Origin: an uncultured Lachnospiraceae bacterium
GTDB lineage: Bacteria; Bacillota; Clostridia; Lachnospirales; Lachnospiraceae
DNA: 64,000 bases
Reading direction: 5' to 3'
Assembly (NCBI GenBank): GCA_902781455.1
Contig: CACZJF010000001.1
Location: 186,001 to 250,000 of the forward strand
The notes under the pieces are model-generated. The model saw only the letters and a program-made list of their open reading frames with translations. It was not told the origin of the DNA and searched no databases. Position numbers and translations under genes: made by a program. Within the stretch, counting starts at the first letter, position 1. The number at the start of each line of letters is the position of its first letter. This document shows positions 9,661-36,222 of the stretch, one piece after another.

Positions 9661-11013
<1,353 letters not shown>

Positions 11014-15342: not shown

Positions 15343-15386
15343 AGCTTACTATATATACCGGCCAGTTCTGTAATTCTCAGGTTACA
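15343..15386 (-). promoter_or_regulatory. Island regulatory site E and -10 upstream of the small membrane-protein unit
   Basis: Minus strand: the 18-bp site TGTAACCTGAGAATTACA (15386-15369), exactly 20 bp, then TAAGCT (15348-15343). This is one of five such arrangements in the island. The first downstream gene starts at 15265. A TTGACT/AGTCAA inverted repeat at about 15397-15415 lies just upstream. Confidence 0.6.
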
Positions 15387-15431
15387 CAACCGAAATTGAC
15401 TTTATGACAGTCAATTATCAGCCAGAGCATC

Positions 15432-15465
15432 AAAAAAGGCTTACAGTCCAAAAGGACCGCAAGCC
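15432..15465 (-). terminator. Rho-independent terminator after the 53-residue membrane protein
   Basis: A 12-bp minus-strand stem with two mismatched positions (GGCTTGCGGTCC and GGACTGTAAGCC, 4-nt loop) is followed by TTTTTT. It lies 43 bp beyond the stop at 15508 and separates it from the next unit. Confidence 0.75.
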
Positions 15466-15507
15466 TGATAAAATGGGCACAATCATTCATTTTCGATATT
15501 TCGCAAT

Positions 15508-15669
15508 TCACATAATACTGCATTTGACCGGACTCATTCCGTCCTTCTGTGTGGCAGCCGGTGTTGTTCTGAATGCGATCACCAGAACCGCAAAACAAAC
15601 GCATAATACGGTTGTATAAAATGCGCGATTGTATCTTCTGTCTGTACAGACTGTTCCCTGATCTCCCAT
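15508..15669 (-). CDS. Small single-pass membrane protein (53 residues)
   Basis: The ATG at 15669 is preceded by GAGGAGGAGCAGGT, a strong ribosome-binding site. The product has one hydrophobic helix (FYTTVLCVCFAVLVIAF) and short polar ends; no family is recognised. A regulatory site with -10 lies about 70 bp upstream (15740-15783) and a good terminator follows, so this appears to be a short monocistronic unit. The longer frames overlapping it lack ribosome-binding sites. Confidence 0.5.
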   Translation of the reverse strand: MGDQGTVCTDRRYNRAFYTTVLCVCFAVLVIAFRTTPAATQKDGMSPVKCSIM

Positions 15670-15739
15670 ACCTGCTCCTCCTCTTTTCTGACACAATTTC
15701 GAAGCTATCTTGTCACTTTGTGCTTCGCCTGTTATCCGC

Positions 15740-15783
15740 ATCCTATCAGATGAGGAGCATGGGGCTGTAACGTGCAGGTTACA
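15740..15783 (-). promoter_or_regulatory. Island regulatory site D and -10, overlapping the CoA-transferase stop codon
   Basis: Minus strand: TGTAACCTGCACGTTACA (15783-15766), a near-perfect dyad, then exactly 20 bp, then TAGGAT (15745-15740). The TAA stop of the CoA-transferase gene lies inside the site. The next gene starts at 15669. Confidence 0.65.
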
Positions 15784-17290
15784 TTTCTACCTCAAACGGC
15801 AGCTTCCGGACAATGTCTTTTTCTATGTCAACGCCCGGATAAGCCTCGATCAGCTTTAGTCCTCTGGGAGTAAGGCGGAATACACAGCGTTCCGTCACAT
15901 AGAGAACTTTTTGTCCGTTCTGGATCGCCCGCTTTGCGGAAAAACTGATGGTGCGGATCTTTTTGACAAACTTAGGAATCTCACCTTCCTTCTCAATAGT
16001 AACAATACCTTTGTTCTGGGACACTTCCAGGCCCTTCGCGGAAAATGACATACAGAAAATCACAGTCGGCGTCTTAGCCGTAATGTTGGCGAAACCACCG
16101 ATCCCGGCGTATGCACCGTCGCTGCGGTGCGCATTTACATTGCCCTTTTCATCCACTTCATAGGCACCCATGAAGCAGATATCCAGCCCTCCGTTATCAT
16201 AAAGGTCAAACTGGTTGGCCATATCGTACACACAGGCTGCTCCGATCGTCGCACCGAAATACTGGCCGGACACCGGAAAACCTCCGACACTGCCTGACTC
16301 GACCGTCAGCGTAATATTGTCCAGCATTCCGATCTTGCGCGCATGCCGGGATACCATCTCCGGCATGCCGATTCCGATGTTTACGATGTCGTCCAGCCGT
16401 AGCTCGGAAGCTGCCCTGCGCCCGATGATATTGCCGATCACATCATTTTTCCCTCGGCCCAAAGATGCGGCATCAATCTTATCGTTCCAGGTTTTCCAGT
16501 CTTCAAACGGAATCTCAAAGCTTCCGGTCAGCGCGACGAGGGATTCATCCTTCTGCTCCGGCTCCACGACAACGATGGCGTCCACGAGGCAGCCCGGGAT
16601 GATCGCATTTCTGGGACGGGAAGGAACATTGACCAGTCGGTCGACCTGGACAATCACCTTGCCATGATTTGCCTTGACTGCCTGGCAGATCGACAGAGCG
16701 TCACCCGACATGTACATATCGTCGAAAGTAATGTTTCCCTTCCGGTCCGCTGCAGTGCCTTTGATCAGAGCGATCGTCAGTTTCGGAATCTTGTAGTAGA
16801 GAAATTCCTCTCCATCAACCTCCACATATTTCACGAAAGAGTCATCAATCGACAGCCGGTTGACACCGGGTCCTTCGTTGCGGGGATCCACAAAGATATC
16901 CAGCCCGACCTTGGAGAGCGCTCCGGGCAGTCCTCCCGCCTGTGCGCGGATCGCGTGTGAGATACAGCCGAGGGGAAGATTGTAGGCTTCGAACCGATCC
17001 TCCAGAAGAATCTTCTTGGTGCTGGGCATGGCGCCGAAGTGTCCGCAGATCAATCGGTCAACCGCGCCTTCCCGGATATACCCTTCCGCGTTGCGTTCCT
17101 CGTCCCAGACACCGAAGCCTGCACTGGATACAATGGTCAGATGGTTTGGAGACTGCATACGCTGATACCGTCGGTAGATGGCTTCATGCAGTTCAACCGG
17201 ATTCTCGATTCCGACAAAAGAATTGACGCAGATGACATCCCCGTCCCGGATCAGACGGATTGCTTCATCCGCGCTCATGATTTCAAACAT
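15779..17290 (-). CDS. Acyl-CoA:carboxylate CoA-transferase (YdiF / propionate CoA-transferase type)
   Basis: 503 residues, the length of fused alpha-beta CoA-transferases of family I. The N-terminal half has GDVICVNSFVGIENP and the glycine-rich GGLPGA region; the C-terminal half contains NIGIGMPE and TVESGSVGGFPVSG, whose Glu is the expected nucleophile that forms the glutamyl-CoA intermediate. It moves CoA between short-chain acids; the substrate cannot be read from sequence. The start at 17290 lies 36 bp after the GH3 gene, so both may share a transcript. Its presence inside a signalling island is odd. Confidence 0.85.
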   Translation of the reverse strand: MFEIMSADEAIRLIRDGDVICVNSFVGIENPVELHEAIYRRYQRMQSPNHLTIVSSAGFGVWDEERNAEGYIREGAVDRLICGHFGAMPSTKKILLEDRFEAYNLPLGCISHAIRAQAGGLPGALSKVGLDIFVDPRNEGPGVNRLSIDDSFVKYVEVDGEEFLYYKIPKLTIALIKGTAADRKGNITFDDMYMSGDALSICQAVKANHGKVIVQVDRLVNVPSRPRNAIIPGCLVDAIVVVEPEQKDESLVALTGSFEIPFEDWKTWNDKIDAASLGRGKNDVIGNIIGRRAASELRLDDIVNIGIGMPEMVSRHARKIGMLDNITLTVESGSVGGFPVSGQYFGATIGAACVYDMANQFDLYDNGGLDICFMGAYEVDEKGNVNAHRSDGAYAGIGGFANITAKTPTVIFCMSFSAKGLEVSQNKGIVTIEKEGEIPKFVKKIRTISFSAKRAIQNGQKVLYVTERCVFRLTPRGLKLIEAYPGVDIEKDIVRKLPFEVEM

Positions 17291-17326
17291 AATTTTCAGG
17301 TCCTTTCCATCAGTATCTTATCTTCC

Positions 17327-18682
17327 TTATTCTTCAATAATAACACCGTCAAATCCTTCCTCTACAGTCACTGATCCGTCTGAATAGGGCACCTGCTGAA
17401 TATCCTCTCCATCCTGCACCTGCTGTCCTCCAAAGACATCGACGGCAGCTTCTTCCGACTGAATGCCGGCTGACTGTTCCTGCTGCCTGAGTTTCAGGCT
17501 GATGATCCGTCGCAGGGATTCCTCCAGTCGCTCTTCACTGATCCTTCCGGCGCCAACTTCATTCAATACGGCAGCGTAAGCCGACTGAAAATCAGCCGGC
17601 ATCAGAAGCAAATCCGATCCTGCAAGAAAAGCCTGAACAGCAGCTTCTCCGGAACCATACAGATTCGTGACGGCTCCCATGGAAAGTGCATCCGTAATGA
17701 TGACCCCGTCAAATCCCATCTGCTCTCTCAAAAGGTTTGTCAGGAAAAAGTGGGAAAGAGACGCAGGGGTATGATCGCCCGTGATATTCGGAAAAGCAAT
17801 GTGTCCTGCCATCACCAGATCAGCGCCGGCAGCGATTCCGCTCTCAAAAGGAATCAGTTCACAGCTTTTCAGTTCCTCCAGCGTCTTATAACTGACAGCC
17901 GCTCCCTGATGGCTGTCCTCACTGGTATTTCCATGTCCCGGGAAATGTTTCAATGTTGCGCAGATTCCTTCCTCCTGCAGGCCTTTCACATCAAAAGAAA
18001 CCATGCTTGCTGCAAGATTCGGATCTGATCCAAACGACCTGCTGCCGATCACTGTATTATCCGGATTTGTCAGTACGTCCGCTACCGGTGCAAAATCAAC
18101 ATTGAAACCAAGCTGTCTCAGATAAGCTCCGATGGTTGTTCCGCTCTTGTAAGCCTGCAGTGGATCTTTGGTGTTTCCCACAGAAAGCATCTCAGGAATA
18201 TAAGGCGTATTCTCAATACGTCCGGAGACACGCCGGACATTGCCGCCTTCTTCATCAACGCAGAGAAAAACCGGAAGTCCGATCCTGGCATCACTGATAT
18301 CCTGCATGGCTGACAACATCTCGCTGGTCTGCTCCCATGTCTGAATATTGGGTTCCATATATATGATACCACCGACAGGATAACTGGAAAAAGCCGCCGC
18401 TGTTGTTTCTCCGGCCATCGTCACACTGTCTACACCGGTCAGCGCTTCCGGAGTGACCACAAAAAGCTGCGCAACCTTTTCCTGAAGGGTCAACCCTGCA
18501 AGGATTTCTTCTACACACTGTGTGGGTATTCCGTTCCCCGTTTTTAGATCTCCTTCTTCGCTGTCAGTGATATCTTCCGTTTTGACAGAACCAATCTGTC
18601 CATGAAGGTCAGCCGCTTGCCCTGTCATGGCAGAATAAAAAAAACAGAGCGAACATAGAACAAAGCATGCACTTTTCTTCAT
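17327..18682 (-). CDS. Secreted glycoside hydrolase family 3 protein (beta-N-acetylhexosaminidase type)
   Basis: 451 residues from an ATG at 18682 after AAAGGAGATTTTTGTCGGG; an upstream ATG would spoil the signal peptide. A Sec signal lies at ~1-24 (SACFVLCSLCFFYSAMTGQA). The GH3 N-terminal barrel has NVDFAPVADV, the NagZ-type loop KHFPGHGNTSEDSHQG with the His/Asp dyad, and the nucleophile in GVIITDALSMGAV. It should release beta-linked N-acetylglucosamine from cell-wall fragments or glycans outside the cell. Lying directly after the VWA/lectin gene, it could supply or process the glycan sensed by the island. Confidence 0.85.
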   Translation of the reverse strand: MKKSACFVLCSLCFFYSAMTGQAADLHGQIGSVKTEDITDSEEGDLKTGNGIPTQCVEEILAGLTLQEKVAQLFVVTPEALTGVDSVTMAGETTAAAFSSYPVGGIIYMEPNIQTWEQTSEMLSAMQDISDARIGLPVFLCVDEEGGNVRRVSGRIENTPYIPEMLSVGNTKDPLQAYKSGTTIGAYLRQLGFNVDFAPVADVLTNPDNTVIGSRSFGSDPNLAASMVSFDVKGLQEEGICATLKHFPGHGNTSEDSHQGAAVSYKTLEELKSCELIPFESGIAAGADLVMAGHIAFPNITGDHTPASLSHFFLTNLLREQMGFDGVIITDALSMGAVTNLYGSGEAAVQAFLAGSDLLLMPADFQSAYAAVLNEVGAGRISEERLEESLRRIISLKLRQQEQSAGIQSEEAAVDVFGGQQVQDGEDIQQVPYSDGSVTVEEGFDGVIIEE

Positions 18683-18799
18683 CCCGACAAAAATCTCCTT
18701 TATAATCAAAACACAGCTTTTTATCTGGTTCAATCCGTTCGAAGCTGAATATCTCAAATCAATCATCTCATTTAACCCGAATAATCAGCAATCGGAAAA

Positions 18800-20413
18800 T
18801 CATGATTCATATTCACAGATGTATCCCAGATTTCCCTTAAAGTAATCCAGCCCGGAATCGAGTACATCCTCTCTCTGATCATTCCAGGACCATGCATTTT
18901 CTACCTTCCAGAGCATCAGATAAAACTCCGGCGTTCCGTCCAGGTCGTTACGGGAGGGTTCTCCGGGATACCACGCCGTGTAGCCAAAAGGCTCTCCCGT
19001 GATCCAATGTCCAAAGGCACCGTTACCTCCCACAGAGGTGTATCCGCCGAGCCAGCAGTATTTGACGCCAGCACCCTCGCACATGCCAACGAGCTGATCC
19101 ATCTCGGCCTGCGACGTGATAGTGGCCAGATGACCGCCGCGGGCAATGCAGGCATCATTCGCTTCGGACCAGCTGACATCATCGCGGATAATCTCATATC
19201 TCGACAGATGCGCAGCCTGCTCAATCACCTTGGTAGCCTGGAACGTATAATCTGTGATGGCACCAATATAGAATTCATCCTGAAGGGTACAGCTGATCCT
19301 GCGCTGTGCATACGGATCAGCATTCGGGTCTGACTCATATTCAATGCAGTACATCTCTTTCTGATCAGAATAGATGGTCTGCAGAATCTGTCCGATATCA
19401 TAGATACTGTCCACATCCCAGTAACAGCCGCCAGTCTCATCACAGATATATTCCAGAATATAGCTGTCTGCGTCTGCAGTTCCGATCAGGTAGACGGGAA
19501 CTTCTCTCTGCAGTGCAAGACTGACTACTTCCTCTTCCGTATAAACACTTTCATTATCCATTCCATCAGTAAACCCAATCACACATCTGGCTCCCGCCTG
19601 ACTTCCGGCATTCATGATTCCCGTTACCAGGGCATCATACAAGGCAGTTTCCCCATAGGCGACCATGTTGTAGATTCCGTTCTGCAGCAATGAGGTATCC
19701 TGTGTATATGTACACATGTACATCACATAGGAGTCGAATGACAGAATCTCCACCTTGTCTCCATGCGCATAATCAAGGCTGGTGACAAAATCGCTCATGA
19801 TTCTCTGCATCTGGGAAAGGTCATATTCCATACTTCCCGACTTGTCAGCGACAATATCAATGCTGAGCCCCTGATTGCCCGCAAGCTGCTGAATCTGACG
19901 GACAGTTCTCTCGATCTCAGATCCACCGGTGATAGTCTCTGTGATATTCGCAGTCATGGAATGAAGTGTGATCGGGTCATCGTATTCATCATTGAATTCA
20001 AAATACAGCTTTACATTCGGATAGTCTGAAACATCACTGGATACAAAGCTCATATTCGCTGTAATCGTAGTTCCCGGCTGGGTTGTTCCGGGCGCCACCT
20101 GAGATATGGAATCACCCTGCGTAGTCTGGGCATTCGCTGCCTGCCCGGCCTGTGCGGCGGCAGATACTCCCTGTGCCGCATCCTTTGCCGTTCCACATTC
20201 GCTGCAAAAATTCCCTGTCATCACTGCACCACAATTGGAACAGGTCCATTCATCGGACGGCCTCGGGGAGCCGCAGACACTGCAGAAATTCCCTATTACC
20301 ACAGACCCACAGACAGGGCAGGTCCATTCCTGGGATTCGGCGTACACGGCTCCGGAATAAAACAGTGTTGTAAGAACTATCACGAAAGAAAGAATAACGG
20401 CTGTTTTTTTCAT
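18800..20413 (-). CDS. Secreted double zinc-ribbon, von Willebrand A, C-type lectin protein
   Basis: 537 residues from an ATG at 20413 (GGAGGGGATCTG upstream); it overlaps the PP2C stop by 1 nt (TGATG). Order: signal peptide (1-25); two zinc ribbons (C32/C35/C44/C47 and C58/C61/C70/C73); low-complexity Gln/Ala/Thr linker (~75-120); a VWA domain (~183-375) with the MIDAS motif DKSGS at D190, then T and D in later loops (GETALYD, GFTDGMDN); a C-type lectin-like domain (~415-537) with WSEANDACIARGGHLATI, WLGG, EPSRND, WSWND and YICEYE. Zinc ribbons behind a signal peptide are unusual, as such ribbons are normally cytoplasmic. It probably binds a glycan or protein at the surface. The domain combination is one I do not recognise. 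Confidence 0.8.
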   Translation of the reverse strand: MKKTAVILSFVIVLTTLFYSGAVYAESQEWTCPVCGSVVIGNFCSVCGSPRPSDEWTCSNCGAVMTGNFCSECGTAKDAAQGVSAAAQAGQAANAQTTQGDSISQVAPGTTQPGTTITANMSFVSSDVSDYPNVKLYFEFNDEYDDPITLHSMTANITETITGGSEIERTVRQIQQLAGNQGLSIDIVADKSGSMEYDLSQMQRIMSDFVTSLDYAHGDKVEILSFDSYVMYMCTYTQDTSLLQNGIYNMVAYGETALYDALVTGIMNAGSQAGARCVIGFTDGMDNESVYTEEEVVSLALQREVPVYLIGTADADSYILEYICDETGGCYWDVDSIYDIGQILQTIYSDQKEMYCIEYESDPNADPYAQRRISCTLQDEFYIGAITDYTFQATKVIEQAAHLSRYEIIRDDVSWSEANDACIARGGHLATITSQAEMDQLVGMCEGAGVKYCWLGGYTSVGGNGAFGHWITGEPFGYTAWYPGEPSRNDLDGTPEFYLMLWKVENAWSWNDQREDVLDSGLDYFKGNLGYICEYES

Positions 20414-21219
20414 CAGATCCCCTCCGTATACACCTTGCACAGAATCGCGGTTGCATTGTCTTTCGCACCGGCCTGCAGAATTGCCTGCTGCAGGTTCATC
20501 AGGCAGATCGTAACAGATTCCTCTTGCAGCAGATACTTCTCGATCTCCTGATCTGTGACCATGTCTGTCACGCCGTCCGTGCACAGAAGAATGCGGTCAC
20601 CAGGGGATAAGCGTATCTTTCCGATCTGCGGAAGAAGGATCATCTCCTCTTCTTCTATTCCAAGATACTGACTTAGCGGTGGTTTTGAGTAAAATATGGA
20701 AGAGGATACCTGGTCTGTCGTAATCTGCTGTAACCTGCTTCCATGGAGAAAATATATTCTGCTGTCTCCTATGTTGGCGAAACAGGCTTCCTGTTCCCGG
20801 AAAAGCACGCATACTGCCGTTGCCCCCATGGAACGGATCCGCTTCTCTTTCTCAAAGCGACAGACTTCGCTGTTCATATCCCGGCAGAGATCTTCCAGAA
20901 AGATTTCAGGCTTCCATGACGCTGATCCTTCCGGACTGCTCTCCATGTTCCGGAGCACAGCAGCCTGCCGCTCTTGATCTTTCTGTCTCATGGTATCAGC
21001 TGCAATGAAAGCAGCAGCCTCTCCATAGCTTTCTCCACCCATTCCATCGAATACACCAATCAGTGGCTGATTGCAGAGACTTATCTTACCACTGATCACA
21101 CTTTCAGAACCGTTGTTGTTCATCGGAAGCATATGCTGTGCAATATACAGATTGTCTTCATGATTGTTTCTGATACTGCCAATCATGCTGAAGTATGCAT
21201 ACTGTAATACAGTGTTCAT
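20413..21219 (-). CDS. PP2C-family Ser/Thr phosphatase (first of three)
   Basis: 268 residues. PPM metal-binding motifs are all present: RNNHEDN near residue 17, GVFDGMGGE near 55, GDSRIYF, CTDGVTDM and AKDNATAI near the end. It should dephosphorylate the island kinases or their substrates in the cytoplasm. An insertion of ~45 residues after the second motif (MRQKDQERQAAVLRNMESSPEG...) is longer than in typical Stp-like enzymes. Start ATG after CAGGAGGGAAG. It overlaps the VWA/lectin gene by 1 nt, so the two are translationally linked. Confidence 0.9.
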   Translation of the reverse strand: MNTVLQYAYFSMIGSIRNNHEDNLYIAQHMLPMNNNGSESVISGKISLCNQPLIGVFDGMGGESYGEAAAFIAADTMRQKDQERQAAVLRNMESSPEGSASWKPEIFLEDLCRDMNSEVCRFEKEKRIRSMGATAVCVLFREQEACFANIGDSRIYFLHGSRLQQITTDQVSSSIFYSKPPLSQYLGIEEEEMILLPQIGKIRLSPGDRILLCTDGVTDMVTDQEIEKYLLQEESVTICLMNLQQAILQAGAKDNATAILCKVYTEGI

Positions 21220-21297
21220 CTTCCCTCCTGTCAGTCTTCAGGAATGCCACTGGCTTCGTCTGGTGACAGATAAAATTCCGCGGTGAACGAATAACAT

Positions 21298-21342: not shown

Positions 21343-22203
21343 TTATCCAAGCCTGAATTCATTGTTCGATTTGCCGATTCGGATTCTGGAGCCCGGACTC
21401 ATAAAGACGTCCATATTCTTTGCGATCGGAGCACCCTGCATGTCGAAGACGCCGTTTCTGGAGACATCTCTCACTGTGTATCCATTCTTATCCGCGATGT
21501 AGGTTACATAACAGTGGATCCTGCTGATTGCCTGATCTTTCAGAACGAGGTTGCAGACGGCTGCATCTCTTCCGATTGTAACTCTTTCCCCGTCCTTCAT
21601 CGTGACTGACGCGTCTTTGTATTCACCGGCAATTCCGATCAGACGTCCCTGACTGTCTTCTGCAACGTTCTTGATGCTCAGTGGATCCAGCGATTCGAGG
21701 CGCGGACTGATGGAAGTAAAGCCGGACACTCCAACAGCGATGGCAATCGCTGCAATCACAATCAGGAGATACTGCCAGGTAGAAAACTTATAGGCAAGGG
21801 AGAATATTTCCGGCAATGTGATGATCTGCAGGATATACATGATTTCACACAATACACCACAGAAAAATGCGAAGGTCTTGTTCCCGATTACACCGAAAAC
21901 AATCAGTCCGATGGATCCGATTACCGGCAATCCGTACAGAAGAACACAGTCAAGAGCGCTGTTGAAACCAAGCCACTGTGCAACAATGTTCGGATGATCA
22001 GAGCTATCAAAGATGGCCGAAAGCACTCTGTAGGCACTGATCTTTGTAACATTCATGCTGCCTGCCTCCTCCAGGAGACCGGTAATCGTCGAATTCCAGT
22101 AGGCCTGTCTCATCTGGAAAATCGGAAACAGAAAGAATCCGATCAGACCCGCAATACCGCACAGCGCAACAATAAAAGAAAAAGATTTCATCTTGTTTTT
22201 CAT
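21343..22203 (-). CDS. Multi-pass membrane protein with C-terminal FHA domain
   Basis: About 286 residues. ATG at 22203 has the AGGAGG site 11 nt upstream; a GTG at 22209 (5 nt from it) is the alternative. Four hydrophobic segments (~8-30, ~90-108, ~112-135, ~145-165) are followed by a cytoplasmic FHA domain from ~200 with IGRD, a serine in SRIHC and SRNG, the phosphothreonine-binding loops. It may read phosphorylated Thr on an island kinase at the membrane. Regulatory site C lies 83 bp upstream. It is the first of a unit leading to PP2C and the VWA/lectin protein. Confidence 0.8.
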   Translation of the reverse strand: MKNKMKSFSFIVALCGIAGLIGFFLFPIFQMRQAYWNSTITGLLEEAGSMNVTKISAYRVLSAIFDSSDHPNIVAQWLGFNSALDCVLLYGLPVIGSIGLIVFGVIGNKTFAFFCGVLCEIMYILQIITLPEIFSLAYKFSTWQYLLIVIAAIAIAVGVSGFTSISPRLESLDPLSIKNVAEDSQGRLIGIAGEYKDASVTMKDGERVTIGRDAAVCNLVLKDQAISRIHCYVTYIADKNGYTVRDVSRNGVFDMQGAPIAKNMDVFMSPGSRIRIGKSNNEFRLG

Positions 22204-22259
22204 AATCACTCATACCTCCTGTTTGAAAAGAAATCTGATATCTTCCTGAATCTGGTCTC

Positions 22260-22303
22260 ATGATACAGGATACGGATGTCATTTCTGTAGAACACAGGTT
22301 GCA
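22260..22303 (-). promoter_or_regulatory. Island regulatory site C and -10 upstream of the membrane FHA gene
   Basis: Minus strand: TGCAACCTGTGTTCTACA (22303-22286), exactly 20 bp, then TATCAT (22265-22260). The gene starts about 57 bp beyond the -10. Confidence 0.6.
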
Positions 22304-27224: not shown

Positions 27225-27926
27225 TTACTTTCTTGCGTCTTCCCAGTTGAAACGCGTATCACAGAACGGTACAAAACGAAGTACAGTGTTGCCAAGTGTA
27301 AGCTGGTCACGGTCATTGAGTTTGACTGTCCCAAGCACAACCTCGTCATTGACATAGAACAGTGCATGGGAATCTCCCGGCTGGGCGTAGAACTGACACT
27401 GCTTCGGTTCATAGGTGACGATCGCGTGGATGTCACGGGAGATTGCGTTGTCTCCCTGCAGATAAACATCGTGTTGCGGGGAACGTCCGATAAAGTTTTT
27501 GCCGGTAAAAAGGTTATAGCACTTTCCGAAATTGATTCCAGAGGTACAGACCAGCCAGCCGACAACCGGGTTTCCGGCGCTGGAAGACTTGGCTGACATC
27601 TGCTTCTGGTCGGCCGGTCCGGGCTGGCTGAAATAGGCTACAGTCGCGCCATCATCATAGGCCGGCTCTGACGGGAACGGGATATTATTGACAGACATTC
27701 TGCGGGCCTGGTCCTTCAGATTTACCTGCAGGTCTTCCTCAGGTGTCTCCGCCTGCGTCACATCCATATCCGCCTCGGCGTCCGCAGCCGCCGTCACGGA
27801 AGCGGTCTTGAAGTCATTGGACTGAAAACCGATCGTCTCGTTGACGGCTCCGCCGGAGCAGTACGGGCAGCTGCTGAACTTTTCCGCATCATAAAAGTGT
27901 CCGTTTGCACATCTTTCCATTCTCAT
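27225..27926 (-). CDS. Zinc-ribbon FHA-domain protein
   Basis: 233 residues from ATG at 27926 with GGAGGGACATAAG upstream. N-terminal ribbon MERCANGHFYDAEKFSSCPYC, a form I associate with clostridial FHA proteins; an acidic Thr-containing linker (~30-110, including ETPEEDLQVN) that might itself be phosphorylated; then an FHA domain (~125-230) with IGRSPQHDV and ISRDIHAIV. The third FHA loop is degenerate (DSHALFYVND, no NGT). It is soluble. It is first in the unit carrying the receptor kinase and kinase-FHA genes, with site B 83 bp upstream. Confidence 0.8.
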   Translation of the reverse strand: MRMERCANGHFYDAEKFSSCPYCSGGAVNETIGFQSNDFKTASVTAAADAEADMDVTQAETPEEDLQVNLKDQARRMSVNNIPFPSEPAYDDGATVAYFSQPGPADQKQMSAKSSSAGNPVVGWLVCTSGINFGKCYNLFTGKNFIGRSPQHDVYLQGDNAISRDIHAIVTYEPKQCQFYAQPGDSHALFYVNDEVVLGTVKLNDRDQLTLGNTVLRFVPFCDTRFNWEDARK

Positions 27927-27982
27927 CTTATGTCCCTCCATTTTCTTTGACTGCTGATATTTCTTATCTGTTCTCTACTGGT

Positions 27983-28026
27983 ATTGTACACGACGATGCC
28001 GGCGGCAGTGTAACCTTCAGGTTTCC
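27983..28026 (-). promoter_or_regulatory. Island regulatory site B and -10 upstream of the zinc-ribbon FHA gene
   Basis: Minus strand: GGAAACCTGAAGGTTACA (28026-28009), exactly 20 bp, then TACAAT (27988-27983). The site also forms the loop side of a stem (CGGCAG/CTGCCG) after the VWA-FHA gene. Confidence 0.6.
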
Positions 28027-28062: not shown

Positions 28063-30159
28063 TCAGTCCGTCCATGTGACACGGAAATGCATCTTTCCAG
28101 CCTGGATATCATCTCCGGGACGGATCTCTGTCTTCTGTGTGATCTTTTCTCCGTTCACACGAGTTCCATTCCGGGAGCCAAGATCTTCCACACAGAATCT
28201 CCCATCCTGTTCCAGGATCAGGCGGAAATGCTTCCGCGACATGATCGCGTCATTGCAGAAAATATCGCAGTCTTCCTTAGAGCGACCCACCGCAAGGCTT
28301 CCCCGGACCGTATAAGGCACCTTCTTCGGCGCTTCTGTTCCGTTATCGATCTCGATCAGGACTTCCCTGGGCTTTGAAGTGTCACCGATATTCACCTGCA
28401 CTTTCTTATTAACATGGCTTTTCTCTACGGCAACTCCTTCGATAAGGGTCACCTTGTTTTTCTTCATCCTGCGGCTGTTCAGAATCATGATCAGAAGCAG
28501 GATCAGGACAACGATGGTCAGTACAAGCGGCCACCACTTCAGGAGAAGGGCGGTAACGTCCGTCTTCTGTTTTACACCCTGTACTTTCGCTGCCCAGTCA
28601 GTCTGCTCGAGCGCATTTGCCTGATCAGACTGATCCTTGACATTCTTTATGTGAATCGTATAATCACCGTTCTCAAGGTTCTGTGAAAGGACAATCTTAT
28701 AACGGAGACCTTCCTTGTCCAGCGCCTTCGCCTGGGCAACCGTCACATCTTTCTCTCCCAGTATAACAGAATAGTTACCGTTGATCTCAGCTCCGGATAC
28801 CGGCTCAGAGAAGGTGATCTCGAATCCGTCCGGCTCACTTGCCTTAATCCCGGTCACGGTCGGTACCGTCACATCTTTGGGTTCGGTCTCAGGCTCTGTC
28901 TCCTCCGGCAGGCCTGCCACAATCAGAGGCTGAGGCTCACTGTAAACCTGCAGCGGGTTCTTTTCCTGCGTATTATCAGTCACATTCTGAATCTGAAGCG
29001 TGTAGTTTCCATTCGTAAGCTTTTCTCCCAGAACCAGGCTGTATGTGTTCGCGGCGGAATCTTCTGCGACAACCTGGCTGACTGCCAGCGTATGATCTCC
29101 GCTCACCTTGTAATTTTCTGTCTTTTCCGCACCCGCAACAGGCTTGGAGAATGAGACACGGATCTCATTGTCTGAGATGACACTCACATCTGTTACAGAA
29201 GGTGCCTGATCGTCCGCTATATGTCTGGAGACCAGAATCTTTTTGGTCAGCTCTTTTCCATCCGGGAAACGAAGCACCAAGTCCTCCAGCTTCATTGAGA
29301 TCTGATTGGAAGCGGCTGAAAGCTCCATATGGTTTGTGTTCAGGACAGTATCTCTGATCAGATTCAGTCCGTTCAGGACAGAATTGGCCCACAGGTTTTC
29401 CACGCCTTCCGGCAGCTGATCAACGGTCCACGGGACGCCTCCGGTATTGATCGCGACAGCACTGAAACTGCTGCGGTTGGTTCTGGCCTGCTCTTCCGTC
29501 TCCTCTTTTTTCTCGACAGCGACGGTATATACCGGAATACCCTTCGAGGAGATGCTGTCTGATACGGTCTGCGCATCGTGGGTGTTGTCCGCGAAATCTT
29601 CTCCGTCTGAAATGCAGATAATCAAACGATGCATCCCATCGTCAGAGATCTGCTCGATCTCGGAAGCAGCCTGGTTCATCGCATCAAACAGGGCGGTATT
29701 CATATCCCCGTTTGTAAGAGAAGCAACGGTCTGAACCGCGCTCTCTCTGTCTTCCTCTCCGGCCAGAATCTTTTGAACCGAATCCCCGAAGGTGTAAAGT
29801 ACAAGCCGGTCATTTTCTCTCAGCTCAGCAATGAACTGCTGCAGAGAAGCCTTGATATTCTCAAAACGGTCGGTACTGATGGATCCGGAAATATCGAGCA
29901 GTACATAATACTCGATCCCGATGTCGGAATCCGCAATCCTGACTGGCTGGTTTTGCTGCGTCAGCTGCTCCCCGTCCAGGAATACAGAAGGTACCTGGTC
30001 TATCGCGCCCCTGTAGTCCACACGAACCAGAGGTTTGCAGACTACAACCTGTTCGACTGCCGCTTCCTCATCAGCATGTACGCATACACTGCAAAGCAGC
30101 ATTATGATCATCAGCAGCAGGCCTGTCAGTAATGTGCGCCGTTTCACTGGTTTTTTCAT
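28063..30159 (-). CDS. Transmembrane VWA/Ig-like protein with cytoplasmic FHA domain
   Basis: 698 residues after a very strong site (GAGGAGGAGAGGAAGG). Signal peptide (1-29); VWA domain (~84-280) with MIDAS DISGS (89-93), TALFDAM and CISDGEDF; two Ig-like repeats (~318-410 and ~430-530), each with a SFSKPVAGAE or TFSEPVSGAE segment and an LxNGxYTxxIxNV ending; membrane helix at ~548-572 (WWPLVLTIVVLILLLIMIL); basic RRMKKNK stop-transfer; FHA domain (~620-698) with VGRSKEDC, SRKHF and SRNGTRVNG. It can link an extracellular adhesive domain to a phosphothreonine reader inside. First of the two VWA proteins of the island. Confidence 0.88.
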   Translation of the reverse strand: MKKPVKRRTLLTGLLLMIIMLLCSVCVHADEEAAVEQVVVCKPLVRVDYRGAIDQVPSVFLDGEQLTQQNQPVRIADSDIGIEYYVLLDISGSISTDRFENIKASLQQFIAELRENDRLVLYTFGDSVQKILAGEEDRESAVQTVASLTNGDMNTALFDAMNQAASEIEQISDDGMHRLIICISDGEDFADNTHDAQTVSDSISSKGIPVYTVAVEKKEETEEQARTNRSSFSAVAINTGGVPWTVDQLPEGVENLWANSVLNGLNLIRDTVLNTNHMELSAASNQISMKLEDLVLRFPDGKELTKKILVSRHIADDQAPSVTDVSVISDNEIRVSFSKPVAGAEKTENYKVSGDHTLAVSQVVAEDSAANTYSLVLGEKLTNGNYTLQIQNVTDNTQEKNPLQVYSEPQPLIVAGLPEETEPETEPKDVTVPTVTGIKASEPDGFEITFSEPVSGAEINGNYSVILGEKDVTVAQAKALDKEGLRYKIVLSQNLENGDYTIHIKNVKDQSDQANALEQTDWAAKVQGVKQKTDVTALLLKWWPLVLTIVVLILLLIMILNSRRMKKNKVTLIEGVAVEKSHVNKKVQVNIGDTSKPREVLIEIDNGTEAPKKVPYTVRGSLAVGRSKEDCDIFCNDAIMSRKHFRLILEQDGRFCVEDLGSRNGTRVNGEKITQKTEIRPGDDIQAGKMHFRVTWTD

Positions 30160-30277: not shown

Positions 30278-31006
30278 TCATGATACCATGATACAGATAG
30301 CCGAATAATTGTCTCTCTGCGTTCCTGACGCCTGTTCCCTGGCGATCTCATCCATACGTCTGAGCCACTCTTTGGGCGATGCGGAAGAGATGAGACATTC
30401 TTCCATTCGGCTTTCATCAATATATTCCCAGAAACCATCGCTGCACAGGAGAAACGATTCCGATCCTTTCAGCGTGTATTGTTCTGATACACTGAACGGG
30501 TTGGAGGTCCATTCTCCACCGATCACCTTCAGAAGACGATTCTGCTGCGGATGCCCCCTGACTTCGTCCTGGCGGATCTCACCAAGATTTACCAGAAGCT
30601 GGGGAACACTATGATCCTTTGTACAGTCCTTCAGATGACCGTTCTCGAAATAATAAACTCTGGAATCTCCGATATGCGCCCATGCAGCAGACTTCTCTCC
30701 AAGATACAACACAGCCAGTGTTGTACTCATGGCAGCAAGTGATCTGTCATCCTCCTGCTTTTTCAGAACTTCTTCCTGTGCCTTGCGGATTGCTTCCGGC
30801 AGGATACCGGGACTGTCGGCCGCTGACAAAAAGCAGGCAGCAGAAGCATTCACAGCTGTATCGGAAGCAATTCTGCCGTTTCCGCAGCTGCCCAGCCCGT
30901 CCGCCAGCGCGAACAGGTACCTTCCTTGACAGGATTCTATCCGGATCGCGTCTTCGTTCTGGCCGCGTCCTCCTTTGGAAGTGATGAAATCGTAACGGAC
31001 GTTCAT
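30278..31006 (-). CDS. PP2C-family Ser/Thr phosphatase (second)
   Basis: 242 residues from ATG at 31006 after CAGGAGGGGAAA; a GTG 15 nt upstream is less likely. Motifs: GGRGQNEDA, FALADGLGSCGNG, HIGDSRVYYF, LLCSDGFWEYI and RDNYSAI, covering the PPM metal ligands. The second motif reads ADGLGSCG in place of DGMGG, a divergence that might affect the metal site. No membrane segment. It follows the pseudokinase gene by 70 bp and precedes VWA-FHA. Confidence 0.85.
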   Translation of the reverse strand: MNVRYDFITSKGGRGQNEDAIRIESCQGRYLFALADGLGSCGNGRIASDTAVNASAACFLSAADSPGILPEAIRKAQEEVLKKQEDDRSLAAMSTTLAVLYLGEKSAAWAHIGDSRVYYFENGHLKDCTKDHSVPQLLVNLGEIRQDEVRGHPQQNRLLKVIGGEWTSNPFSVSEQYTLKGSESFLLCSDGFWEYIDESRMEECLISSASPKEWLRRMDEIAREQASGTQRDNYSAICIMVS

Positions 31007-31076
31007 TTTCCCCTCCTGCACGATGCAGGCAATCCTTTCTTTGTGGTTTCCGGTTATGATTCTACCATAAGCAGAC

Positions 31077-31994
31077 TCACAGGCTGTAATGGTCAGATAA
31101 CAGCCGGGTCAGTTCCCCGCAGCTTGTGCTTCTCTTTTTCAGGTTTGGAGCTGACAGGCGGTTCAGTACTTTTTTGATCTGAGACCGCTGCCTGAACGGC
31201 ATATCTTTCACCTGCTGGTACAGTTCTTTCCCGATCAGTCCCAGAGAATACAGATCTGCCCGTCCATCCGCCTGATTCCCCTCCAACAGCTCCGGCGCGG
31301 AATAAGGAGAGAACAGAGAAGTATGATTCATCTTGACAGCTGTCAGTATCTTTGCGGTTCCGAAACCGGTCAGCCTCCCGTTACAGTTTTCATCGACATA
31401 GATGTCAGAAAGAGACAGGTTCCAGTGGCAGATTCCCCTCTGGTGCATCTCATCGATGCAGCGGCACAAGCCCCCCAGAAGATGATCTGCTTTCTCACGG
31501 GGAATTGCGGATTCTTTCTCCAGTATCTCTTCCAGAGTATCATCATATACATATTCCGACACAGCAAAAGCGGTTCCCCTCTCCCGGAAGCAACGGAAAA
31601 CAGGAACCAGCCCGTCAATGTCCTGGTTCCGGTTCAGTCTTCCGGCTTCTTCTTCAAAAGCGTTCTGCCCGTATTCAAATATGCTGCCATCAAACTGTCT
31701 GAGCGGTTCTGGTACTGCCTGGCCGTCGATCCTTCTGCAAAGATCCGATGGATAGTATTCACTGAGAAACACCTTTTTCTCCAACAATGCATCCCATGCG
31801 ACGTAAGTGTTGGAAAAACCATCCTGTGTCTGAAGACAGCCCAGAATATATCGCCCCATCAGGATCGTTTCGGCGTCAAGCGCTTCCGGAAAGCGGACCT
31901 TCTGTGTTCTCTGCTCTTCTATGCTGTATCCGCAGTGAGGGCATTTCGTCAGAGTCTCCTCATACTCCTGCATGCATCTCATGCATCTTCGCAT
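31077..31994 (-). CDS. Zinc-ribbon pseudokinase
   Basis: 305 residues; ATG at 31994 follows GGGAGGAAACAAT and lies 16 nt inside the PP2C gene. N-terminal ribbon C4/C7...C18/C21, then a kinase fold. Every catalytic position is altered: the glycine loop is LQTQDGFSNTYVA, the VAIK lysine is Ser78 (VFLSEYYP), HRD is HWN (190-192), the DN asparagine is Asp197, and DFG is GFG (210-212). Structural landmarks (APELLEG, DLYSLGLI) remain. By family knowledge such a protein can scarcely phosphorylate and would act as scaffold or allosteric partner, perhaps of the receptor kinase, which has the same ribbon-kinase order. Confidence 0.85.
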   Translation of the reverse strand: MRRCMRCMQEYEETLTKCPHCGYSIEEQRTQKVRFPEALDAETILMGRYILGCLQTQDGFSNTYVAWDALLEKKVFLSEYYPSDLCRRIDGQAVPEPLRQFDGSIFEYGQNAFEEEAGRLNRNQDIDGLVPVFRCFRERGTAFAVSEYVYDDTLEEILEKESAIPREKADHLLGGLCRCIDEMHQRGICHWNLSLSDIYVDENCNGRLTGFGTAKILTAVKMNHTSLFSPYSAPELLEGNQADGRADLYSLGLIGKELYQQVKDMPFRQRSQIKKVLNRLSAPNLKKRSTSCGELTRLLSDHYSL

Positions 31995-32782
31995 ATTGTT
32001 TCCTCCCGGTGATACTGAAGAAGAATCACGGTTGTATTGTCCTGTGTCACTTTAGAGAGGCGGTGTGCCTCCATACACAGCCTCCTGGCTGCAATATCCA
32101 TATTTCCTCCACTTTCTTCTATGACAGCGCGGATCTGCTCATTATCCAGCGCCTTATAGAGGCCGTCGCTGCACAGGATCAGGATATCTTCTTCCTTCCA
32201 GGGAATCAGGTTGGCGGACAGATCCATCAGGGACAGATTACCGATCCCGATATAACTGATCAACGCTTCTCCCTGACCTGCCTTCAGCTGGTATTCTTCG
32301 GGATCAATCTTTCCGGTCCGAAGCTGCTCGTTCAGCTGAAGAAACAGATTATGCTTCCTGGTCAGAATATAGAGGACACCCGAACGAAGGAGCATGATCT
32401 GACTGTCTCCGACGCTGCCCCACAGAAAATGGCTGTCATCGGACAGTACCATGACGCAGGTGCTTCCCGCGTGGAGCAGGTTCCCTCTTTCATCCGTAAG
32501 GGACGAGACAACGCTGTCTGCACTGACCAGAACGTTCTGCGTCCATTCGGCAAATGTCTTTGAATCGTCCGGCGGCGAATTGTGAAAGGCATCCGCAAGA
32601 ATCTTTGCCGCCGTGCAGCTGGCCGCCTCGCCTCCGGTCAGACCACCCATCCCGTCACAGACAGAAGCGATCACCATCGGTCTGTCATCAAGACATTCCA
32701 ACAGATAAGAATCCTGCTGGGATTTACGGTCACCCTGGATCCGGCAGATCCCGGTTTTCAGATTGCAGATCGGTATATTCAT
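31979..32782 (-). CDS. PP2C-family Ser/Thr phosphatase (third)
   Basis: 267 residues. Motifs: GDRKSQQDS, SVCDGMGGLTGGE, SVGDSQIML, LCSDGLYKAL and TQDNTTVILL. Metal ligands are conserved. ATG after CAGGTGAGTC. It lies 10 bp after the membrane FHA gene and overlaps the pseudokinase start by 16 nt, so phosphatase and pseudokinase are made together. Confidence 0.88.
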   Translation of the reverse strand: MNIPICNLKTGICRIQGDRKSQQDSYLLECLDDRPMVIASVCDGMGGLTGGEAASCTAAKILADAFHNSPPDDSKTFAEWTQNVLVSADSVVSSLTDERGNLLHAGSTCVMVLSDDSHFLWGSVGDSQIMLLRSGVLYILTRKHNLFLQLNEQLRTGKIDPEEYQLKAGQGEALISYIGIGNLSLMDLSANLIPWKEEDILILCSDGLYKALDNEQIRAVIEESGGNMDIAARRLCMEAHRLSKVTQDNTTVILLQYHREETICEDA

Positions 32783-32792
32783 GACTCACCTG

Positions 32793-33785
32793 CTACAGAA
32801 GCTGGATTGAACAGTTTCCCGTTCCCAGGAAGATTTCGCTTCCTCTCCTGATCTCATTGGTCCCGGTTCCAAGCGGTTTTCCGTTCAGAATCACAGGAGC
32901 ATTCTCATAAACGGTCACACAATAGTTTCTCTTCTCAGGGACATAGCAGATTCTGCAGTGGCATGGAGCCAGATCGCTGCGTTCAATCACCATGTTCGAG
33001 CAGGAGGGATCGCTTCCGAATGAAATCTCGCCCTGATCCATAAAGGGGATCACCTCTCCTGCAAGCGGACCGTGAGAACAGCGGAACGAAGGCTGCTCAG
33101 CAGCGGATCCTCTCACGTCTGAAGCAAGGGTATCCTTCATGATCAGGCGAAGGAACGATACAATCAGCGCAATCACAAGAGCTGCAAGAATCACCCATAA
33201 AGCCGGTTTGATTCCATGAAGGATCATACTGCGGATTTCGGAGCTGCTCACTGCTGTCTCAACAGAACCCCCTGCAGCTGTCTCAGTCCCGGCTCCTTCC
33301 GTGATCTGTGTCACCACCACACTCACGGAATCCCCTGCTTTGTCAGCGATCATTGCGGCCAGCCTGGAAGGGAGATGCCAGAACAGGAGAAAGCCCATAC
33401 CGATGCATCCGGCCGCGGAAAAAATCAGCGACAGTATCTTCGCCCACTTCGCACTGATCAGTCCAAAGATCAGCAGCCCGACAGCACTGACAAGAGCAAT
33501 CAGTACCAGGATCCTCACAAGCAGCAGAAGTTCCGTTCCGGCGCTTCCCAGACTCTCTGCTTTTTTCGTAAGGGAAAACAGCACTGCCTTCCCTGAGACT
33601 CCAAGCACCTGTCCGGAGTCGTCCGATCCGAACACTCCGGAGACTCCCTGCAGCTGTTCAGTAAACGGAAGGCCGTCGTCCGTGACTGAGGAAAGATCCA
33701 GCTTCAGCAGCGGAAACAGGGTGCATACAAGAATGATAATACTGAGAAACACCGTCAAAACCGACAATTTGCCACTACGCTTCAT
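32793..33785 (-). CDS. Membrane protein with C-terminal FHA-like domain
   Basis: 330 residues after AAAGGAGG. Four hydrophobic segments (~8-28, ~85-110, ~114-136, ~192-214) flank an extracytoplasmic region, and the FHA-like domain spans ~240-330 (GEISFGSDPSCSNMVI, LAPCHCRICY, NAPVILNGKPLG). The usual GR and SRxH residues are replaced by GSD and APCHCR, so phosphothreonine binding is uncertain. The overall plan matches the FHA membrane protein at 21343-22203. It starts 2 bp after the BspA-like gene. Confidence 0.75.
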   Translation of the reverse strand: MKRSGKLSVLTVFLSIIILVCTLFPLLKLDLSSVTDDGLPFTEQLQGVSGVFGSDDSGQVLGVSGKAVLFSLTKKAESLGSAGTELLLLVRILVLIALVSAVGLLIFGLISAKWAKILSLIFSAAGCIGMGFLLFWHLPSRLAAMIADKAGDSVSVVVTQITEGAGTETAAGGSVETAVSSSEIRSMILHGIKPALWVILAALVIALIVSFLRLIMKDTLASDVRGSAAEQPSFRCSHGPLAGEVIPFMDQGEISFGSDPSCSNMVIERSDLAPCHCRICYVPEKRNYCVTVYENAPVILNGKPLGTGTNEIRRGSEIFLGTGNCSIQLL

Positions 33786-33787
33786 AC

Positions 33788-34813
33788 CTAATACAACCTC
33801 CTTTTGTCTTCGTCAAAGAAGTATTCTCCGTCCTGTCCGTAATTAACTTCCAGTGAACTGTGTGCGAACATTCCATCATGCTCTTCCACGTTTTTCAGAT
33901 CCCATTTTGTCAGATTCATGTTAGGAAGACTGCTGCAGCCCATGAACATATTGGTGACGGATCTCACTTCTCCCATATCAAACCAGGAAACATCAAGGGA
34001 AGAGAGCTTCGTACAACAGATAAACAGATCTGTCATTCTCTGGACATTGGACGTATCAAACCGTTCCGGGGAGAACAGGATCTCTTCCAGATTCTTACAG
34101 CTGTGAAACATCAAGGCCATGGTGTACGCAGATACCGGATTGAATGTCGTCAGATCCAGTTTTTTCAGTGAGATACACTGGATAAACATCTGGTAAAAGC
34201 TGCGGCAGCAGGACGTCTCAAATGAAGAAAAATCCAGCTGTGTGATACTCTCACAATAGGCAAACATCTTGGAAAATGTCTCCGCCTTCCCGGTATCCAT
34301 ACCCGTCAGGTTGATCTTCTGTGCCTTGTAGTTATGATAAAACATATACCGAAAATCTGTTGTGTCCTCTGTATGAAGATTGCCGCCGGGATCAATCACC
34401 TGCGCGTTCTGGTACCAGGCAAAGAGCCCGGATGCGTCTTTCGGCGCTTTTACACCGCCCTCTCCGGCGATATAAAGATTGTCTTCCGCGTCCAGCCAGC
34501 CCATGACTGACCCGTTTCCGGACTCGGACAGATCAACGGCGTCCGCCGGCATCTCTTCCAGTGTATCAAGTACATAGACTCCCCGGATATCTTTTCTCTT
34601 CCATGACTGTACCCCAAAAGCGGTTTCGACTGGATCCTTCACGATCCCATCCTCAGCAAGATCTCCTTGCGCACCGTGCTCCTCCTTCAGTACATTAGCC
34701 TCCCAGGACGGCAACAAAGCCTCTGAGTCCGGTTCCTGCGCGAAAGGTATCATACCGAAAATGGCTGAGAGCACCAGAACTGATGCAGCCAGCAGGTTCT
34801 TCTTATTCTTCAT
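33788..34813 (-). CDS. Secreted BspA-like (DUF285) leucine-rich-repeat protein
   Basis: 341 residues with a signal peptide (1-~25, LLAASVLVLSAIFGMIPFAQ). The rest is BspA-family repeats of the form MF-x2-C-x2-L-x2-L-D-x-S-x-F-D (for example MFAYCESITQLDFSSFETS, MFHSCKNLEEILFSPERFDTS). It is clearly related along its length to residues ~790-1110 of the receptor kinase, including VMGWLDAEDNLYIAGEGGVKAP near GVIGWINAAGNLILAGEGGVKAP and a common ending GEYFF. It has no anchor, so it may be a soluble ligand, decoy or partner of the kinase ectodomain. Confidence 0.85.
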   Translation of the reverse strand: MKNKKNLLAASVLVLSAIFGMIPFAQEPDSEALLPSWEANVLKEEHGAQGDLAEDGIVKDPVETAFGVQSWKRKDIRGVYVLDTLEEMPADAVDLSESGNGSVMGWLDAEDNLYIAGEGGVKAPKDASGLFAWYQNAQVIDPGGNLHTEDTTDFRYMFYHNYKAQKINLTGMDTGKAETFSKMFAYCESITQLDFSSFETSCCRSFYQMFIQCISLKKLDLTTFNPVSAYTMALMFHSCKNLEEILFSPERFDTSNVQRMTDLFICCTKLSSLDVSWFDMGEVRSVTNMFMGCSSLPNMNLTKWDLKNVEEHDGMFAHSSLEVNYGQDGEYFFDEDKRRLY

Positions 34814-34924
34814 ACGCCGTCTCTCCGTTTCCTGGTATATTCATGCACCGTCTCTTCACTTCTGCGTATGTTTATGCCCCGCCACTTCATTTCTCCATAT
34901 CTGCATGCGCTGTCTCTTTGTATA
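34803..34924 (-). repeat. Imperfect ~31-bp tandem repeats and a 13-codon upstream ORF at the BspA-like start
   Basis: About four units of ~31 bp (boundaries near 34831, 34835, 34866, 34897) share TnTTCATGC-CCGTCTCTTC on the plus strand. Read on the minus strand, each unit repeats a purine-rich stretch followed by a GCATG- or GTATG-like start. The last unit is the genuine start of the secreted protein at 34813. One earlier unit opens a 13-codon frame (34844-34803) that ends inside the real gene start, which would allow translational coupling. Confidence 0.45.
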
Positions 34925-34932
34925 CCTGACAG

Positions 34933-36132
34933 TCATTCCTGCCGGAAAGACATCTCCCAGATTTCCGAATAGGTGGAAAGCGGGACTTCGCTCAGAAGGC
35001 ACATCAGAATAAACGCTTCATAAGCATTCACCGGATACAGTCCACTCATGTAGCATTGTCCCAAAAGGAAATTGATCTCATCCAGATAATTCATGCAGCG
35101 AATCTCAGGCTCGTCCTCAGACATCTCCTGTGAATAGATAAAGAAGAGCAGTGTAATCAGATCAAAACGGTCAACAGCCGCCTGACGATGCTCAATCTTT
35201 TCGATCCTTTGCCGGCTCAGTCTTTTCTGATTAAAATGTCTGTTGAGCAATGATGCTGACATCTTCTGAAGATTTCCGTTGTCAGTCACTGGAATGCCGC
35301 AGCAGATAATTTTTTCCAGATCAGCCGGTGAGATGTCTTCCTTCGTCCATTCCCTTCCGTTTCCAAGTTCTTCGTCCTCACAGTAAATCCTGGCTACATG
35401 TCTTTTCGCGCGGTCCATAAGCTGAAGAAAAACCTGATATGCCGTATCATCTTCCCTTCTGTCACCATGCGTCTTCTTCAGCGACAGCAGGTAGTGATCC
35501 AGTTCCTCTTCATCTGCAAGAAGCGGCATCTGACTGTCCGATATCTTTTCTGCGGCATCTGTCTCATTAACCTCCACATTCTGATACCATTCCTGCTTTT
35601 TCTTCGCAAATGACCACGGGAGCTGATTCCTGTAGCAATAATGGTAGATTACCTCCTGTGGCAAAACAGGATTAAAATCTTCTTCCTTAAGCACCTTGGT
35701 CAGGAATTCAGACACTTCGGTTTCTTTCATCCTGAGCCCGAATCCAATCAGAAACATGGTCGGACGCCGGACACTCTCTGATGACAGCCAACCTTTCACA
35801 ATCGCAGACCAGCGTTTGGTGGTCGGTTCCACAGAATGGGGTGTAAAAGACTCTTCAAAGGATTCCATGATGATGTCTCTATAGACGTCATCCTGAACCG
35901 AATAAAACGGTTCCTGAATCTGTGCTTCGGAATAAAGATACCGACGCAGGAAATCTTTGAAAGAGACAATCTGCATCTTTCCCTGAAGATAAGAAAAAAT
36001 CATATCCGCGTCCATATCCTCAAAATCACCGGAATAGACAACACTGTGGATCTCGTTTATTGCCTTTCGCGTAAACTCGAAGTCCTTGATGGTACTGTCA
36101 AAATCAACCTTGGCCCACATATCATTCTTCAT
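34933..36132 (-). CDS. Cytoplasmic protein of unknown function, first gene of the island
   Basis: 399 residues, no signal peptide, membrane helix or motif I recognise. It is mainly helical and charged, with many Glu/Lys, and a Cys pair near residue 270 (IICCGIPV). An acidic segment around residues 190-215 (NETDAAEKISDSQMPLLADEEELD) looks like a linker. Start ATG after AAGGGTGGACAG. It is transcribed first from site A, 87 bp after rng. Its steady co-location with readers and phosphatases would suit a kinase substrate or effector, but that is inference. Confidence 0.7.
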   Translation of the reverse strand: MKNDMWAKVDFDSTIKDFEFTRKAINEIHSVVYSGDFEDMDADMIFSYLQGKMQIVSFKDFLRRYLYSEAQIQEPFYSVQDDVYRDIIMESFEESFTPHSVEPTTKRWSAIVKGWLSSESVRRPTMFLIGFGLRMKETEVSEFLTKVLKEEDFNPVLPQEVIYHYCYRNQLPWSFAKKKQEWYQNVEVNETDAAEKISDSQMPLLADEEELDHYLLSLKKTHGDRREDDTAYQVFLQLMDRAKRHVARIYCEDEELGNGREWTKEDISPADLEKIICCGIPVTDNGNLQKMSASLLNRHFNQKRLSRQRIEKIEHRQAAVDRFDLITLLFFIYSQEMSEDEPEIRCMNYLDEINFLLGQCYMSGLYPVNAYEAFILMCLLSEVPLSTYSEIWEMSFRQE

Positions 36133-36178
36133 TACTGTCCACCCTTGTCTTATAGCCAGTGCTTTCTGTGCTGATCAC

Positions 36179-36222
36179 AGCATAACAGGAACACATAAGA
36201 GAACTGTAACCTGCTGGTTTCA
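36179..36222 (-). promoter_or_regulatory. Island regulatory site A and -10, overlapping the rng stop codon
   Basis: Minus strand: TGAAACCAGCAGGTTACA (36222-36205), exactly 20 bp, then TATGCT (36184-36179). The first three bases of the site are the rng TGA stop. The first island gene starts at 36132. Confidence 0.65.

Follow-up and report, generated by a model that had tools for sequence, protein, structure and literature searches.

What switches on an island of serine/threonine (Ser/Thr) kinase, phosphatase, FHA and VWA genes in an uncultured Lachnospiraceae bacterium (assembly GCA_902781455.1), and does the island carry its own regulator? We examined a 64,000-nucleotide stretch of this genome, referred to here as the window (contig CACZJF010000001.1, positions 186,001 to 250,000), for which the original prediction had claimed that five 18-bp minus-strand sites, each followed by a TAnnnT hexamer after 20 bp, join the island into one regulon. 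All five sites are present at the positions listed in Table 1, and the gap is exactly 20 bp in every one of them. Scanning 20 intergenic gaps yielded a sixth site, and 14 of the 20 gaps had no such site. The hexamer of site 6 ends 38 bp ahead of the first listed start, a GTG, of the PP2C open reading frame (ORF) at 30278-31021. The arrangement had been said to occur nowhere else in the window, which is true of the exact pattern, found only at the five sites, but overlooks this sixth member. The absence of a good -35 element was confirmed, as none of the hexamers located 15-19 bp upstream of the -10 agrees with TTGACA in over three of the six positions. As described, two sites share bases with the stop codon upstream, namely those at 36222 and 15783, and the latter also takes in two bases of the last codon. 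With the hexamers taken as -10 elements, the 20-bp gap would put the site centre near -41.5 in all six cases. The dyad of the window sites is imperfect, with positions 1, 2, 4, 5 and 6 pairing with their mirror positions in four to six of the six sites and positions 3 and 7-9 in two or three. Together with the genome-wide and comparative results below, this leads us to conclude that the six operators form a real regulon confined to the island, and that their promoter design recurs in other islands with private variants of the operator.

The whole-genome scan that the original prediction had called for was made on the available source genome (2,392,143 bases in 65 contigs, 81% complete), using AACCNGN5TACA-N20-TANNNT as the exact pattern and its reversed form as the control. 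The exact pattern occurs at five places, all of them in this window, and the control at none; there was also no match in 18 other genomes of the same genus. Across 145 genomes, the source genome included, 32 had a match, and the other 31 matching genomes held 39 places in total, at most three per genome, compared with 33 for the reversed control in the same genomes, which is chance level. A pattern match in genome G028 (locus L070) lies inside a coding sequence that by eye resembles rnfD and was discarded as chance. A looser pattern, TGNNANCNGN4TTACA-N20-TANNNT, which was composed when site 6 was already known, found seven places in the source genome with at most one mismatch, six of them the window sites; with two mismatches it found 35 places against 10 for the reversed control. 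The choice of pattern was post hoc, which speaks for a chance resemblance picked by eye, but the genome-wide confinement, the overlooked sixth member and the recurrence in other islands described below make such a coincidence extremely improbable.

An initial contig scan with the kinase as query found no relative. We then used alignment A1, made of four homologues of the 399-amino-acid (aa) product of gene 34933-36132 (family F0 hereafter), to search named genome contigs, and this returned 25 loci. These are labelled Lachnospiraceae, Oscillospiraceae, Ruminococcaceae or other Clostridia; a ruminant is named in eight of the 25 titles, and ten further titles carry RUG names, which we take to denote rumen assemblies. 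Comparison with these related islands, another check proposed with the original prediction, showed that many of them have the 20-bp layout with different operator letters, approximately GGGAAAxTnnAnnTTACA-N20-TATAAT. The claim of a shared, non-random promoter architecture joining the kinase, phosphatase, FHA and VWA genes is supported, and its geometry reappears in related islands. Before counting, we removed identical or near-identical loci, namely L108 (the same stretch as L066) from the family-sharing, spacing and locus counts, and L111 also from the spacing counts.

A degenerate site, [AGT]G.AA.{9}TACA, stands 20 bp before TAnnnT at 24 places in the 398 kb of 26 loci taken together, and zero to four times at each of the 20 other spacings tested between 10 and 30 bp (four at 19 bp, none at 21 bp), while the reversed sequence gives none at 20 bp. 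Seven kinase loci treated as free of F0 (101 kb; six loci plus L068, which has an F0 fragment at a contig end) held a single site at 20 bp, as did 23 other kinase neighbourhoods (79 kb; not individually checked for F0). The looser form at 20 bp gave at least one site in 16 of 27 F0 loci, the window included (37 sites), compared with one of 27 (one site) in reversed sequence, and the strict form gave 13 of 27 against none reversed and three at 25 bp. With a gap of 19 or 20 bp allowed, the looser form covers 19 of the 27 loci, and a 19-bp gap with TATAAT was seen by eye at L117, L120, L122, L123, L129 and L130. In a later set of new F0 loci (seven after removal of two contigs already in the earlier set, L184 and L186 being dropped as identical or near-identical), the strict form occurs twice at 19 bp, twice at 20 bp and at most once elsewhere, with one and zero in the reversed sequence, counts that agree with the model, though by themselves weakly. 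The generic pattern of the relatives is near chance once one mismatch is allowed, and is useless for genome-wide testing: it found 77 places against 57 reversed in eight F0-positive genomes, and 101 against 99 in eight F0-negative ones.

Several of these comparisons count against reading the sites as class II-type operators bound by a dimer encoded in each island. The relatives' consensus was derived from matches already limited to 19-21 bp, and the spacing peak is therefore partly built in, although this does not apply to the excess at 20 bp relative to 19 and 21 bp. The looser form at the wrong spacing of 25 bp still gives a site in seven of 27 loci (nine sites), and eight of the 27 F0 loci remain without a site even when 19 or 20 bp is allowed. 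In the later set, clear sites were found by our own reading in three of seven loci (one in L185, two in L188 and one in L189), and the other four had no clear site. Of the nine mirror pairs, just three (positions 2, 4 and 5) are matched in 30 or more of 35 sites; the outermost pair is symmetric in six of the 35 (window included), mostly not in the relatives, which weakens the case for a dimer.

The source genome (G000) also holds a second island with F0 and kinase genes, on contig C15 (L067), whose own F0 is 48% identical to that of the window. GGGAAA-type sites occur only twice in the source genome even with up to one mismatch, both in the C15 island, and the control gives none. In G005, a genome of the same genus, all four exact matches to the GGRAAA pattern fall in the C15 island of that genome. 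None of the other genomes in a set of 116 has such a cluster, and five more have two or three scattered matches. A set of 35 hand-picked sites differ by a mean of 4.8 mismatches within loci and 6.6 between them. With repeats removed and two adjoining G005 stretches merged, the values are 4.8 and 6.7 (33 sites, 17 loci, permutation p 0.0002), and without the window 4.3 and 6.1 (27 sites, p 0.0002). Each island therefore seems to own its operator variant. As the two islands of this genome each have a different variant, the regulator is probably island-encoded, and the statement in the original prediction that it is not encoded here is probably wrong. A geometry that is largely kept while the letters drift island by island is most easily explained if each island carries its regulator along with it.

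Two side observations concern these other islands. At L107, sites at 453, 5658 and 19740 end in TTCTAC[AG], possibly a further island-specific variant of the same layout. At L113, L120 and L124, the genes past the sites include BspA-type leucine-rich repeat (LRR), Big_2 and kinase-LRR proteins, with several others lacking a clear match, which suggests that surface proteins belong to the regulon of these islands.

The best candidate for such an island-encoded regulator appears to be F0. Only three families are common to more than five of 30 loci, namely F0 (23), one kinase (19) and one PP2C phosphatase (16), and as most of these loci were picked for F0, its count partly reflects that choice. 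Among 116 genomes in one sample (the source genome included), eight had some match to F0, and full-length copies are confined to G000 and G005, which are also the two genomes that have clusters of sites. Of the other six, G014 carries a fragment at the end of a contig, and the matches in the remaining five are weak or partial. A family-wide search found F0 in nine of 397 genomes, again including the source genome, at an E value of 1e-30 or better. Apart from F0, the only likely DNA-binding regulators among 50 window ORFs scanned with Pfam, a set that includes few of the small ORFs, are an AraC-type response regulator (59994-61667) and a RemA-like protein (3601-3972).

The structure of F0, predicted with good confidence, is almost wholly helical, with a mean predicted local distance difference test (pLDDT) score of 86.9 and a predicted template modelling (pTM) score of 0.84. 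Genome G002 encodes a distant relative of 155 aa, on a contig that also has a kinase match, which matches the helix-turn-helix (HTH) model HTH_31 with an E value of 5.7e-4, below the curated cut-off. This small protein aligns with the N-terminal alignment of F0 over 59 columns (hhalign probability 92%, E value 5.5e-7), a stretch that we read as the rear part of a helix-turn-helix and the helices following it. In G115, an F0 relative of 469 aa adjoins a kinase gene. XRE-fold proteins can activate from near -42, and the likeness of F0 to XRE or HTH_31 activators lies in the distant relative beside a kinase; it differs from them in its length of about 400 aa, its almost wholly helical make-up and its lack of a Pfam HTH match. 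Judged from these sequence comparisons, the chances that F0 is a remotely XRE-like regulator may be about even.

Other results speak against singling out F0 as the DNA-binding partner. None of 21 F0 members matched the Pfam HTH models, and in NCBIfam one of the 21 weakly matched the conjugation transcription factor TprA (E value 0.029). Fold searches gave nothing at an E value of 0.001 or better, either with the full model (best 0.42 in the PDB and 0.59 in BFVD) or with the C-terminal part in the PDB (best 0.67), and PDB sequence searches with alignments A1, A2, A3 and A4 and the small F0 relative found nothing convincing. Site divergence does correlate with F0 distance (r 0.30, p 0.001, Mantel test, 19 loci), but in the 14 loci compared for both proteins the correlation is higher for the kinase (r 0.68) than for F0 (r 0.49), and the partial correlations are 0.04 for F0 given the kinase and 0.55 for the kinase given F0. 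This control removes the Mantel correlation as support for F0. Because the islands co-diverge as units, the co-divergence test does not identify the binder.

An activator encoded elsewhere could also act at real class II-type operators, and might be an HTH protein of another family, perhaps a kinase substrate. The lack of a recognised DNA-binding domain in F0 beyond the weak TprA match is in keeping with this, as are the closer agreement of the operators with the kinase than with F0 and the breadth of our regulator survey outside the window, which covered just two CRP families. Separate or tolerant regulators would then be needed for the two variants of one genome, each of which is limited to its own island, and both genomes with full-length F0 are also the two with site clusters; we therefore consider an external activator rather unlikely. 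Our preferred reading, in which the six sites are class II-type operators and the regulator is encoded in the island, matched to its own operator and best represented by F0, stands in our judgement about midway between right and wrong.

If it is right, a dimer at about -50 to -33, a likely mode of binding given the partial symmetry of the sites, would overlap the poor -35 region and recruit RNA polymerase to the -10 element that starts 20 bp downstream. The six sites would join the transcription units of the island into one local regulon, F0 would bind these operators and also activate its own operon, and the kinases and phosphatases might control F0. We infer activation rather than repression here, as we do dimeric binding, DNA binding by F0 and any control of it by kinases and phosphatases. 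A protein covering the -35 region could also block polymerase, and the sites might then be operators of a repressor or dual regulator at promoters that are active without it. Repressor sites usually tolerate shifts, however, and in the window the distance to the -10 never varies by even one base, as is mostly the case in the relatives too; with the lack of a good -35 this suits activation, and leaves repression improbable. A more specific form of the preferred reading is that F0 represents a new family of remotely XRE-like activators. Each member would have its own operator variant as partner and form part of a kinase, PP2C and FHA island, so that Ser/Thr phosphorylation would directly set island transcription from class II-type promoters that retain the 20-bp geometry as their operator letters diverge. 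We offer this tentatively, with the balance tipping slightly against it. To our knowledge, little is known of how gut Firmicutes link their networks of Ser/Thr kinases, PP2C phosphatases and FHA proteins to gene expression. Such a link becomes directly testable in a self-contained island that brings its own promoter code together with a candidate regulator outside the known families. The set of islands also provides a natural series of operator-regulator pairs.

The activator had been described as CRP/FNR-like, which is apt for the geometry and not for the identity of the protein. Like CRP/FNR class II promoters, the window sites have a centre near -41.5, no good -35 and a TAnnnT at about 20 bp, and their TGTA...TACA ends also recall this family. 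The classic CRP site is TGTGA-N6-TCACA, a 16-bp dyad; the window sites are 18 bp long and of the type TGTAAC-N6-GTTACA, and the island operators change letters between islands. For NtcA-activated promoters, PMC3898017 places a GTAN8TAC site at about 41.5 nucleotides. In the window this spacing is not found, the complete arms being TGTA-N10-TACA; sites 4 and 5 have GTA-N10-TAC, and the other window sites have no GTA in the first arm. The 81%-complete source genome gave no match to the cyclic nucleotide-binding domain PF00027, and three matches to the CRP-type HTH PF13545, none above the cut-off. A true CRP/FNR-family activator, whether cyclic AMP-, oxygen- or NtcA-like, is thus very unlikely to drive the island, and class II is a fair description of the geometry but not of the regulator's identity. 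The TerY-P triad consists of VWA, PP2C and kinase proteins, genes for all of which stand together in the island, to which FHA, DUF285 and F0 genes and the shared promoter layout are added. The general Pfam scan found no Ter proteins among the window ORFs that it covered, and no search aimed at TerD/TerC-type proteins was made. Our literature searches found no paper on FHA/PP2C/Lachnospiraceae gene sets.

Based on Pfam, the island is flanked by the RNase E/G-family gene rng (36220-37593) on one side and on the other by a block of genes that includes those for ribosomal protein L21, Prp protease and Obg; an L27 gene between these was assigned by eye. It encodes kinases, PP2C phosphatases, FHA and VWA proteins, DUF285 repeats, a GH3 protein and a coenzyme A (CoA)-transferase, with site 1 at its head, ahead of gene 36132-34933 (Table 1).

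Table 1. Operator sites, -10-like hexamers and genes of the signalling island (positions in the window).
Feature	Position	Strand	Remarks
Operator site 1, TGAAACCAGCAGGTTACA	36205-36222	-	begins on stop codon of RNase E/G-family gene (rng); pattern match
-10-like TATGCT	36179-36184	-	20 bp past site 1
Candidate regulator, 399 aa, family F0	34933-36132	-	first gene past site 1; no Pfam/NCBIfam family
DUF285/PARCEL-repeat protein	33788-34813	-	
330-aa protein, weak FHA match	32793-33785	-	E value 0.005, below cut-off
PP2C phosphatase	31979-32782	-	
Ser/Thr protein kinase	31077-31994	-	
Operator site 6, TGTTATCTGACCATTACA	31085-31102	-	last codons/3' end of kinase ORF; overlooked in the original prediction
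-10-like TAGAAT	31059-31064	-	20 bp past site 6
PP2C phosphatase past site 6	30278-31021	-	
VWA-FHA protein	28063-30159	-	
Operator site 2, GGAAACCTGAAGGTTACA	28009-28026	-	pattern match
-10-like TACAAT	27983-27988	-	20 bp past site 2
FHA protein past site 2	27225-27941	-	
Kinase with SH3 and DUF285 domains	23779-27123	-	
Kinase-FHA protein	22372-23682	-	
Operator site 3, TGCAACCTGTGTTCTACA	22286-22303	-	pattern match
-10-like TATCAT	22260-22265	-	20 bp past site 3
FHA protein past site 3	21343-22209	-	
PP2C phosphatase	20413-21219	-	
VWA protein with lectin-like domain, weak zinc-ribbon match	18800-20584	-	
Operator site 4, TGTAACCTGCACGTTACA	15766-15783	-	perfect TGTAAC-N6-GTTACA; overlaps CoA-transferase gene stop; pattern match
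-10-like TAGGAT	15740-15745	-	20 bp past site 4
Operator site 5, TGTAACCTGAGAATTACA	15369-15386	-	pattern match
-10-like TAAGCT	15343-15348	-	20 bp past site 5
Small protein past site 5, 66 aa	15065-15265	-	apparently membrane-spanning (by eye)

Between sites 3 and 4, the island also contains a GH3 glycoside hydrolase gene and a CoA-transferase gene (15779-18766). We are not certain of the small ORF separating sites 4 and 5; one listed choice, 15377-15694, would extend into site 5. Past site 5, the 66-aa protein (15065-15265) is nearly repeated in the N-terminus of a 357-aa protein (13685-14758), which shows weak tetratricopeptide repeat (TPR) matches. Further along, a Clostridiales-1 RNA (RF01699; 9395-9663, 73.6 bits) is located directly downstream of the Obg-family gene at 9661-10989.

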